The notes under the pieces are model-generated. The model was not told the DNA's origin. It made no database searches and saw only the letters and a list, made by a program, of their open reading frames with translations. From Halosolutus gelatinilyticus (GTDB lineage Archaea > Halobacteriota > Halobacteria > Halobacteriales > Natrialbaceae), in the NCBI RefSeq assembly GCF_023028105.1, contig NZ_CP095491.1:3286001-3350000 (forward strand): 64,000 nucleotides of DNA, read 5' to 3'. Every line of letters starts with the position of its first letter. Within the stretch, counting starts at the first letter, position 1. A program made the translations under genes and the position numbers. Below are positions 37,131 to 40,610 of this stretch, piece by piece.

Positions 37131-40100
37131 TCAGCGATCGAGCGCGACGGCAACGCCGAGCAGCGCGAGGCCGAGGACGACGGCCGCGCCGCCGATCGTC
37201 GCCTCGACTTCGGCGAGGGCGACGGTCCCACCGGCCACCACGCCGGCGCCGCCGGAACCGGCGAGCGCGGCCGTCGCGAGCCCGCCCGCGGCTCGGTCTT
37301 CCGCGCCGTCGGTCCGCGAATCGATCGTCTCGAGTCTGTCTCGCATCGACTCGAGTCGAGCGTCCAGCGAATCAACGTCGGCCGCGATCGAGTCGGCGGC
37401 CGATCCGCCCGCGGTCGCGTCGGTTCGCGTCTCGAGGGCGTCGAGGTCGTTCGCCACCCGATCGATCCGATCGGCGAGGTCCGCCAGTCGCGCCGTCGGA
37501 TCGGCGTCGACGACCGTCTCGAGTTCGTCGTCGAGCTCGGCGAGCGTTCGGGAGAGGGACTCGTAGTCCTCGCCGAGCGATTCGACGGCCGCGGCGAGAT
37601 CGGCGACGTCCGCCGCGACGGCGCTCACCGCCTCGTCGCCGTCGTCGTTTTCGAGGCGCGAAGCGAGGTCGTCGGTGCGCGACTCGATCGCCTCGACCCG
37701 TCCGGAGAGCGTTCCGACGTCGGTCTCGAGGGCCGCTCGCACGTCGGCGACGTGAGCTTCGGTTTCGGTTCTGACGTCGTCCTCGCGATCCTCGAGCTCC
37801 GATCGCACCTCGTCGAGTCGATCGTCGAGCTCCGACCGGACCGCTCCGAGCCGATCGTCCAGCTCGGACCGGACGTCGTCCGCGCCCGACCGGATCTCGT
37901 CCGTCCGGTCGTCCAATTCCGATCGAACGTCCGTCACGCGATCGTCGAGCGTCTCGAGGCGGGCCGCCAGACTCGTTTCGAACTCCGCGAGTCGATCCTC
38001 GACCGCCGCGACGTCGGTCGCAATCCCGTCGAGGTCCTCGACGATCGACTCGATCGTCTCGCCCTGGTCGGCTACCGATCGCTCGACCGCCGCGACGTCG
38101 GCTGCCGTCGCGGTCTCGGTTTCGACCGCTTCGACGGATTCTTCGACGGCGGCGAGATCCGCCGCCAGGGTCGACACGTCGTCGGCGACCGCCGCGAGTT
38201 CCGCGTCGACGTCGTCGACCCGGTCGGGATCGACCGTCTCCGCTTCGAGGTCGGCGATCGAGTCGCGAACCGCCGCGATGCGCCGATCGAGAGCAGCTTG
38301 GACGTCGGACAGCTCGTCTCGGACGCCGCCGAGATCGTCGTCGATCGCGTCGATACGGCCATCCGTCGCGGAGAGCCGATCGTCCACGCCGTCCACTCGA
38401 TCGACCGCCGAATCCAGCCGATCGCCGACGCCTGCGAAATCTCCCTCCACGGACTCCAGCCGAACGCGCGCGTCTTCGACGGCCGTCTCGAGTTCCGAGA
38501 TCCGCTCGTCGCCCCGGTCGAGTCGGGACGCGGCGTCGGCGAGTTCCTCGTCAACCGCGGCGAGCTCGTCGTCGATCGTCGCCTCGACGGCGGCGAATCG
38601 CTCGTCGGCGTCCGCCGACAGGTCGTCCGCACGCTCCGAGAGGGCGTCGAGTCGATCGTCGGTTCGCTCCGAGAGGTCGTCGAATCGCTCGTCGACCCCG
38701 TCAACCCGGGTCGACTCCTCCTCGAGTCGCCCGGCGAGCCCCTGGACGCGGGTGGCGATCCGATCGGTCTCCCCGTCGACCGCCGCGAGCTCTTCGTCGA
38801 GCCGAGAAACGACCTCGTCGAGCCCCGAGACGGTTTCGTCGACGGCGTCCAGGTCGGCCGTGGACGCCGTCTCGGATTCCAGGTCGGTCAGCTCGTCCCG
38901 GAGCGTCTCGATTCGGTTCCCGAGCGCCTCCGTTCGATCGTCGATCCCCGTCAACTCGTCGCCGAGGGCGTCGAGTCGATCGTCGAGGGCGCCGCGTTCG
39001 TTCGCCGCGTCGTCCGTCGCCGATTCGAGCGTCTCGAGGTCGTCGTCGATCGCGTCGAGGTTCCGTTCGAGGTCCGAGAGCGCGTCGTCGAGCGCGCCGA
39101 ATTCCGTTTCGAGAGACGCGACGTCCTCGTCGGTCGCGTGAGTGTCGCTCTCGGCTTCGAGGTCGGCCAGATCGGCCGCGAGGCCGTCGAGTTGCTCGTC
39201 GACGGCGTCGAGTTCTTCGGCGGGGGCCGCCCGCTCTCTCACGTACTCGAGGTCGGCAACCAGTTCGTCGACCGCCTCGCTGACCGACCGGATCTCCTCA
39301 TCGCGGTTCGCGAGCCGATCGAACAACTGGTCGATCGCGTCGTTCGCCCGCGCGTCGTCGCGATCGGCGTCGAACGGCTCGTCGAACGAGAGCGCCGTCC
39401 GGTTGGCGTCGGATCCGGAAGGGGCGCCGGCGTTCCCGCCCATCTCCGCGGCGTCTACGGCCCCGGCGCGATCGTCCGGATCCGCCGTCGACTCGGACCA
39501 CGTGACCTCTTCGAAGGCGTCGACGTCGTCGGCCGCGGCCGCCAGCGCGCCCCGCGCGGCGCTCGCCGCCGGGTCGTCGGCGAGTCGAACGCCGCGGATC
39601 GAAAACGGCAGGTCGGCCGCGTCGAATCGGCCGCCGATCAGGTACTCGACGCCCTCGACCGCGCCGTCGCCGGCGACCGCGATCGGGACCGCGAGTCCCT
39701 GCTGGACGTCGCCGGCGTCCGCCTCGGTTCCGATCGCGTCGATCAATTCGCCGATCAGGGCGTCGTACGCTTGTGCGAGCGCACTCTCGATGTCGCCCGT
39801 CGCCGCGTTCGGATCGAGGACGAACTCCTCGAGGACCGCCGCGACCCGCGCCGACGCCTCCCCCGTTTCCGCGGCCGCCTGCCGAACGATCCGCTCGCTG
39901 CCCGTCGCGATCGAGAACGCGAGCACCGGCACGCCGTAGTAGGAGAGGGCGACGCTGGTCGTTTGCTCCCCGAGACAGATGCCCAGCCCCGTGTAGTTGT
40001 CGCCCGCGAGTTGATCGTAGACGACGGCGAACCCGCGGCTGATCGGCGTCGCGTCGTCCGCCCGGTCCTCGAGCACCGATTCAACGGCCGTCCGGTGGGC

Positions 40101-40490
40101 CGCCGTCGGCGCTTCGGCGTCGAGCACCGTCCCGGGCGTCGTGTAACAGAGCCGGCCGTCGATCGAGCCGTCGAGAACGTCGTCGACGATCGCGGCGAGC
40201 GCCGGTTCGGCGTGCCCGTCGACGACGAGAACGCCGTCCGAGAACAGCGACGTGGGCTCGCCGCCGTCCGCGCCGTCCGCGACGGTTCGCGCGGCCGTTC
40301 CGACGGCGTACGTCGTACCGTCGTGGTCGACGGTACGGGCAGTCCCCTCCGCGTCCGAGACCCCTGCCTCGCCGAGCGTCCCCTCGTCGGCGGGGAGGAC
40401 GATCGCCGGCGCCGACTCGATCGACGGCTCGTCGCGCCCGCCGGTAGCCGACCGGATCGCCCCGGGTCCGATGTCGAGACCGTATCCCAT
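37131..40490 (-). CDS. Actin/Hsp70-like ATPase fused to a ~700-residue coiled coil and C-terminal membrane helix
   Basis: 1119 residues from ATG 40490. The first ~325 residues show actin-superfamily motifs: phosphate-1 YGLDIGPGAIRSA (3-15), phosphate-2 GLGICLGEQTTSVAL (168-182) after FAVVYDQLAG, and an adenosine-like VAVAGDGAVEG (about 270-280). From about 390 to 1060 is almost unbroken heptad-rich coiled coil (VDELVADLEYVRERA, DALSERADDLSADADERF and so on) with many Asp/Glu. The end GGAAVVLGLALLGVAVALDR is a single membrane helix. The domain order suggests a membrane-tethered cytoskeletal or scaffold protein. The function is not known to me. Confidence 0.8.
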   Translation of the reverse strand: MGYGLDIGPGAIRSATGGRDEPSIESAPAIVLPADEGTLGEAGVSDAEGTARTVDHDGTTYAVGTAARTVADGADGGEPTSLFSDGVLVVDGHAEPALAAIVDDVLDGSIDGRLCYTTPGTVLDAEAPTAAHRTAVESVLEDRADDATPISRGFAVVYDQLAGDNYTGLGICLGEQTTSVALSYYGVPVLAFSIATGSERIVRQAAAETGEASARVAAVLEEFVLDPNAATGDIESALAQAYDALIGELIDAIGTEADAGDVQQGLAVPIAVAGDGAVEGVEYLIGGRFDAADLPFSIRGVRLADDPAASAARGALAAAADDVDAFEEVTWSESTADPDDRAGAVDAAEMGGNAGAPSGSDANRTALSFDEPFDADRDDARANDAIDQLFDRLANRDEEIRSVSEAVDELVADLEYVRERAAPAEELDAVDEQLDGLAADLADLEAESDTHATDEDVASLETEFGALDDALSDLERNLDAIDDDLETLESATDDAANERGALDDRLDALGDELTGIDDRTEALGNRIETLRDELTDLESETASTADLDAVDETVSGLDEVVSRLDEELAAVDGETDRIATRVQGLAGRLEEESTRVDGVDERFDDLSERTDDRLDALSERADDLSADADERFAAVEATIDDELAAVDEELADAASRLDRGDERISELETAVEDARVRLESVEGDFAGVGDRLDSAVDRVDGVDDRLSATDGRIDAIDDDLGGVRDELSDVQAALDRRIAAVRDSIADLEAETVDPDRVDDVDAELAAVADDVSTLAADLAAVEESVEAVETETATAADVAAVERSVADQGETIESIVEDLDGIATDVAAVEDRLAEFETSLAARLETLDDRVTDVRSELDDRTDEIRSGADDVRSELDDRLGAVRSELDDRLDEVRSELEDREDDVRTETEAHVADVRAALETDVGTLSGRVEAIESRTDDLASRLENDDGDEAVSAVAADVADLAAAVESLGEDYESLSRTLAELDDELETVVDADPTARLADLADRIDRVANDLDALETRTDATAGGSAADSIAADVDSLDARLESMRDRLETIDSRTDGAEDRAAGGLATAALAGSGGAGVVAGGTVALAEVEATIGGAAVVLGLALLGVAVALDR

Positions 40491-40610
40491 GGCCACCGCA
40501 ACCGAGACGATCCTCTTGGACCTTTGGCTCTGAGTACCAGAACTGAAAACCAGCCCCGATCGCCTGCGCCGAATGCGGGCGATCCCTCCACTCGCATCGC
40601 CCCCAACGGA

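Follow-up and report, generated by a model that had tools for sequence, protein, structure and literature searches.

Locus and gene architecture

The stretch of DNA analyzed here, a window of 64,000 nucleotides from Halosolutus gelatinilyticus, carries on its minus strand an open reading frame (ATG at 40490, stop at 37131) whose product of 1119 residues combines a volactin-family head with a coiled coil of some 680 residues and a membrane tail. We refer to this gene and its orthologues as fusions. The features of the locus, all on the minus strand, are as follows.

40510..40549, minus strand: non-coding element TTTTCAGTTCTGGTACTCAGAGCCAAAGGTCCAAGAGG, putative promoter or operator, conserved at fixed spacing across Natrialbaceae fusions
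37131..40490, minus strand: whole fusion gene, putative volactin-like pseudo-actin head, coiled coil and membrane tail, 1119 residues
39528..40490, minus strand: residues 1-321, volactin-family actin-fold domain (PF25216, E=1.6e-115; AlphaFold2 pLDDT 88; Foldseek matches to MamK and MreB)
40464..40481, minus strand: phosphate-1 loop, residues 4-9, GLDIGP, with Asp and Gly kept (Asp in 46 of 48 fusions)
40035..40037, minus strand: Arg152, replacing the catalytic Glu (volactin E152, aligned to MamK E143)
39954..39977, minus strand: degenerate phosphate-2 loop by alignment, residues 172-179, CLGEQTTS
39651..39683, minus strand: adenosine loop, residues 270-280, one residue shorter than that of volactin (deletion in 48 of 48 fusions)
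39360..39527, minus strand: acidic disordered linker, residues 322-377 (low pLDDT; dN/dS about 1 for 326-377)
37320..39359, minus strand: coiled-coil region with a few breaks, residues 378-1057 (heptad z about 20, period 3.5; modeled helices)
37212..37268, minus strand: first putative membrane helix, residues 1075-1093, a conserved Gly-rich apolar segment by hydropathy, non-helical in the AlphaFold2 model
37137..37193, minus strand: C-terminal membrane helix, residues 1100-1118 (hydropathy 2.5; helix in the AlphaFold2 model)

The gene lies in a housekeeping region of the 3.9 Mb main chromosome contig, near the genes for PEPCK and ribosomal proteins L11-L1-L10. It faces, in convergent orientation, a small cupin-like gene (an assignment by eye, with no Pfam match) and an MFS transporter gene, while a MOSC-domain gene lies upstream on the same strand across a gap of 120 bp. 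Because the neighbors are either convergent or 120 bp away, and the context is a housekeeping one, the fusion gene is probably transcribed alone. A search for a conserved operon partner among these neighbors (MFS, cupin-like, MOSC, PEPCK and L11/L1/L10) gave no functional hint, and they are kept as chromosomal context in the Natrialbaceae only. The upstream element, with a consensus of about TTTTCANNTCTGGTAYTCNGNNCCAAA, precedes the start codon of Natrialbaceae fusions by some 30-60 bp. The whole genome contains a single perfect match to it, and it is a probable promoter or operator. The possibility that it encodes an N-terminal protein extension was rejected, as different species have it in different frames with respect to the ATG. 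The upstream region of ordinary volactins differs and is TATA-like.

The head belongs to the volactin family

Residues 1-319 of the fusion match the Pfam family Volactin (PF25216) over the entire profile (1-321 of 321), with a score of 386.5 bits against a cut-off of 35 and an E-value of 1.6e-115. An AlphaFold2 model of residues 1-335 is of high confidence (mean pLDDT 88.4, pTM 0.89), and its best solved matches in Foldseek are MamK, MreB and BeeR, at E about 1e-11 (for MamK, E 6.7e-12 and TM 0.67). FtsA, PilM and EutJ are also found among the structural matches. A phmmer search of solved structures with the single head sequence gave no match; a profile built from fusions and volactins succeeded, retrieving MamK and MreB by sequence alone, with FtsA also among its matches. 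The earlier note on this sequence had proposed an actin-like N-terminal fold, which the Pfam match, the model and Foldseek all bear out. Its view that the protein resembled no known archaeal cytoskeletal protein, volactin included, does not survive the PF25216 match.

The same family, fold and length are seen in volactin itself (VolA, HVO_2015), a protein of about 340 residues that forms dynamic filaments, with catalytic Glu and adenosine loop intact and with neither coil nor membrane tail. The fusion, in contrast, has lost the Glu and the intact loop and has acquired a linker, a coil and a tail; its head is 34% identical to the ordinary volactin of its own genome. MamK and MreB, the closest solved folds, differ from the fusion in being short, active ATPases with no coiled-coil arm. 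Salactin of Halobacterium salinarum is likewise a haloarchaeal actin homologue, far more distant than volactin and also lacking coil and tail, which forms polar, dynamically unstable filaments with a role in DNA partition (PMC10746226). Weak PF25216 matches of 350-400 residues below the cut-off are probably salactin-like proteins.

Orthologues in 48 distinct genomes or records, together with the pattern of substitution, show that the frame is a real coding sequence. Comparison with two orthologues from the same genus gives dN/dS values of 0.31-0.34 for the head, 0.91-1.17 for the linker, 0.47-0.52 for the coil and 0.33-0.39 for the tail, and identity is 73-74% in the head and 49-50% in the coil. 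The head and the tail are thus the most constrained parts, and the linker is relaxed. We give almost no credence to a spurious ORF or to a degenerate Hsp70-type chaperone regulator, the latter an idea raised in the earlier note. Long spurious frames do occur at such G+C, as a 1243-aa frame opposite the gene illustrates, and actin and Hsp70 share a common fold. However, the strong family match, the orthologues and purifying selection argue against the former, and Hsp70 is absent from the best 50 Foldseek matches of the head, led by MamK and MreB, which argues against the latter.

The same figures bear on the suggestion that the fusion is simply a structural coiled-coil membrane protein, one resembling an intermediate filament or an SMC-like shape protein, with the head as a relic. 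The coil dominates the protein and has Pfam and NCBIfam matches to SMC and other coils, and the SMC-like protein Sph3 affects cell shape in Haloferax (PMC10869688). A relic would hardly be the best conserved part of the protein, whereas the head exceeds the coil in both identity and constraint, and we consider this explanation highly unlikely.

The active site is degraded

Mutation of either of the residues E143 and D161 of MamK is reported to abolish both ATPase activity and filament dynamics in actins (PMC5059902). In our profile alignment volactin E152 and S172 pair with MamK E143 and D161, respectively; the equivalent positions in the H. gelatinilyticus fusion are R152 and C172, so that neither residue expected of an active ATPase is present. 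Since Ser occupies the D161 position even in ordinary volactin, only the Glu cleanly separates volactins from fusions. It is found in 29/29 sampled haloarchaeal volactins and in 0/48 fusions, and is visible by motif in nearly all of the methanogen volactins inspected. Its place in the fusions is taken by Lys (19), Arg (13; together 32/48) or other residues.

The nucleotide-binding loops have fared unequally. In the fusions the position of Gly176 in the phosphate-2 loop is mostly Gln, and the H. gelatinilyticus protein carries neither of the marks of volactin proper, E152 and the adenosine loop TGGTSS. The Asp of the phosphate-1 loop is gone in two of the 48 fusions. The phosphate and adenosine motifs claimed for this protein in the earlier note are consequently a mixed case, with phosphate-1 mostly intact and with phosphate-2, the adenosine loop and the catalytic Glu all altered. 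Its description of an ATPase seems unlikely to hold, since the Glu is missing from every fusion. The homologues therefore lack nucleotide-contact residues in part, having lost the Glu and largely retained phosphate-1, and the domain does appear degenerate, as a pseudo-actin rather than a chaperone.

Taken as a whole, the alignment points to a non-hydrolysing pseudo-actin head. Because the phosphate-1 Asp is kept in 46/48 fusions, nucleotide binding without turnover is possible. At least two fusions have a more drastic change: L043 and L045 have lost much of the N-terminal half of the head (about residues 30-110) and have kept coil and tail. These truncations would be additional evidence that the fusion needs no nucleotide turnover.

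The main idea of the earlier note, here read as an active, self-polymerising, membrane-bound actin filament that works independently of volactin in cell shape or partitioning, has to be weighed against this background. The intact actin fold and the widespread phosphate-1 Asp are in its favor, and a long coil could space filaments. Against it stand the universal loss of the catalytic Glu, with a basic residue in two thirds of cases, the altered phosphate-2 and adenosine loops, the members without a phosphate-1 Asp and at least two members without part of the N-terminal half of the head. We regard such a filament as unlikely.

Linker, coiled coil and membrane tail

Heptad contrast over residues 390-1060 is 3.93, compared with 1.88 +/- 0.10 in shuffled sequences (z about 20), and periodicity peaks at 3.5, in line with the giant coiled coil first suggested for this region. 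The full-length AlphaFold2 model is poor overall (pLDDT 60, pTM 0.28) and was used for secondary structure only; it presents a near-continuous helix over residues 378-1057 and, at low confidence, a last helix at 1100-1118. With a helix rise of 0.1485 nm per residue, the coil of some 680 residues, which may be dimeric, would span about 100 nm if extended. Its Pfam and NCBIfam matches (SMC, Rad50, spectrin, apolipoprotein and others) were taken as generic coiled-coil cross-matches. Complete fusions range from 505 to 1313 residues, with the coil varying in length and the head and tail constant, as expected for a spacer.

By hydropathy the fusion is a predicted C-terminally anchored membrane protein, with C-terminal apolar segments and no other strong membrane helix. 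Every fusion whose C-terminus is intact shows two apolar stretches by hydropathy, the first of them Gly-rich (GGGGAGVVAGG type), and in conservation segment 1075-1093 equals segment 1100-1118. The simplest reading is that the tail forms a membrane hairpin, probably with both ends cytoplasmic, a reading that rests on hydropathy and conservation and sits beside a full-length model in which segment 1075-1093 is non-helical. The membrane tail foreseen in the earlier note is retained, then, although probably with two membrane segments instead of one, and its proposal of a membrane-anchored scaffold is a reasonable description of an actin-like head on a very long coil with a membrane tail. A search of the rest of the H. 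gelatinilyticus genome for this tail in other proteins found none.

Distribution and origin of the fusions

Volactin matches above the cut-off occur in 70/146 genomes of the order. A long-frame paralogue (767-1258 codons) is also carried by 18 of those 70, spread over four families, and all 18 of these fusion-bearing genomes possess an ordinary volactin as well. Within the Natrialbaceae, 89/125 genomes have at least two Volactin matches, or about 88 once genome G222, with one split volactin, is removed; this fusion count rests on the number of matches per genome, with frames inspected among the matches listed. Among the named matches are Natrinema, Natronorubrum, Haloterrigena, Natrialba, Halovivax and other Natrialbaceae, together with a single match from beyond the family, Halorubellus salinus, and the architecture (505-1313 residues) extends to a few other haloarchaeal families. 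Volactin is near-universal in the Natrialbaceae (124/125), so its co-occurrence with the fusion there carries little information. The Natrialbaceae fusion genomes that seemed to lack volactin hold one frameshifted copy and one copy cut by a contig end. The Volactin family also occurs in methanogens of the same phylum, and the long frame was seen only in haloarchaea.

In a maximum-likelihood tree of 90 sequences, including 48 fusions and with methanogen volactins as outgroup, the fusions are monophyletic (48/48 in one clade, UFBoot 100). Their clade is sister to the ordinary haloarchaeal volactins (95) and lies outside the volactin clade. The tree thus places the fusion as a paralogue of volactin and not an orthologue of HVO_2015, derived by duplication and with a single origin. 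Mean root-to-tip distance is 2.33 for fusions and 0.66 for volactin; long-branch effects could shift the exact position of the fusion clade, its monophyly less so.

This accelerated evolution suggests a changed function, and it is here that our main rival explanation gains ground. The fusion could be a membrane adaptor of the FtsA, PilM or EutJ type whose head binds some other partner, in division, the envelope, DNA or signaling, and is positioned by coil and tail, independently of volactin filaments. Membrane adaptors with an actin fold are already known, and proteins of this kind appear among both the structural and the sequence-profile matches of the head. FtsA and PilM themselves belong to other subfamilies, with no long coil or membrane hairpin. 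Volactin is by far the closest family and always accompanies the fusion in the genomes checked, and on this evidence we judge an adaptor of another partner to be somewhat unlikely.

Two genomes stand apart in these comparisons. In G206 (L088, L091, L097, L100; a genome with a listed completeness of 99%) frame changes appear to break the ordinary volactin as well as the fusion gene, through either sequencing errors or real decay. L051 (G014:C1:1837300-1837539) is a C-terminal volactin fragment only, matching profile positions 238-321 within a frame of 153 codons; its genome is 98% complete, and its relatives have full volactin genes.

A possible role at volactin filaments

The ordinary volactin of H. 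gelatinilyticus is a separate 340-aa gene (462 bits), about 67 kb from the fusion gene. Volactin is reportedly probably essential in Haloferax. It is the Haloferax actin HVO_2015, which forms dynamic filaments that bind to the membrane at their tips (PMC10869688), and in Haloferax volcanii it is the only identified actin homologue (PMC7617734).

We tentatively propose, at slightly less than an even chance, that the fusion is a membrane-anchored pseudo-actin with a reach of roughly 100 nm that tethers, caps or nucleates volactin filaments. Binding of volactin by the head is suggested because the head keeps its fold, is the best conserved part of the protein and is accompanied by volactin in every genome checked. 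In this model, haloarchaeal volactin would have duplicated, and one copy would have lost the residues for ATP hydrolysis and been extended by a linker, a long coil and a membrane hairpin. The C-terminus of the resulting protein would sit in the membrane, leaving coil and head in the cytoplasm, and the head would keep a probable actin-like shape, perhaps binding ATP without hydrolyzing it. Plausibly, such a head would bind ordinary volactin, with a filament end as the likeliest site, and filaments lying within about 100 nm of the membrane could in this way be tethered, capped or nucleated.

The PF25216 head with its MamK/MreB fold, the presence of volactin in the same genome, the single origin of the fusions, their loss of the catalytic Glu, the constraint on both head and tail beside a relaxed linker, the spacer-like variation of the coil and the tip contact of volactin filaments with the membrane favor this tether. 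Conversely, the fusion and volactin genes are not neighbors, and a residue aligned near the MamK polymerisation site (A278) differs between fusions and volactin. Moreover, tip contact is seen in H. volcanii, where volactin is the sole identified actin, and the fusion is therefore not needed for anchoring there. A narrower version is possible, and we hold it more loosely: a catalytically dead actin subunit on a membrane arm that docks on the volactin filament end and anchors or nucleates it, one paralogue regulating another in the manner of eukaryotic actin-related proteins.

RodZ, the partner of MreB, and the eukaryotic nesprins are membrane proteins in which an elongated rod joins an actin filament to the membrane. 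They offer a comparison of working principle and imply no homology, as their heads bind actin without having an actin fold. A search confined to an open-access literature library found no earlier description of a volactin-coil-membrane fusion. Volactin filaments control the shape of the cell, and their tips touch the membrane. As a widespread paralogue that has lost hydrolysis residues and sits on a membrane arm, the fusion is a definite and testable candidate for their regulator; if the proposal is correct, it would show that in archaea, too, one actin paralogue can control another. Its presence in the cultured genera Natrinema, Haloterrigena, Natrialba and Natronorubrum makes deletion or tagging conceivable.

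The surroundings of the ordinary volactin provide two further observations. A DUF7139 membrane protein (PF23600; L002:2705-3616, minus strand) directly adjoins the volactin gene of H. gelatinilyticus, and the same family lies beside volactin in 34/35 haloarchaeal loci; two methanogen loci also show weak matches. DUF7139 is a candidate general partner or anchor of volactin, and a stronger general anchor candidate than the fusion. Finally, in the Natrialbaceae genome G222 (L116:1006-9879) the ordinary volactin gene is interrupted by an insert of about 8.9 kb with 13-bp direct repeats at its borders (GATGAAACTCATC, in itself an inverted repeat). A 324-aa ORF within the insert looks integrase-like by eye, and the insert appears to be an integrative element that has entered this actin gene.
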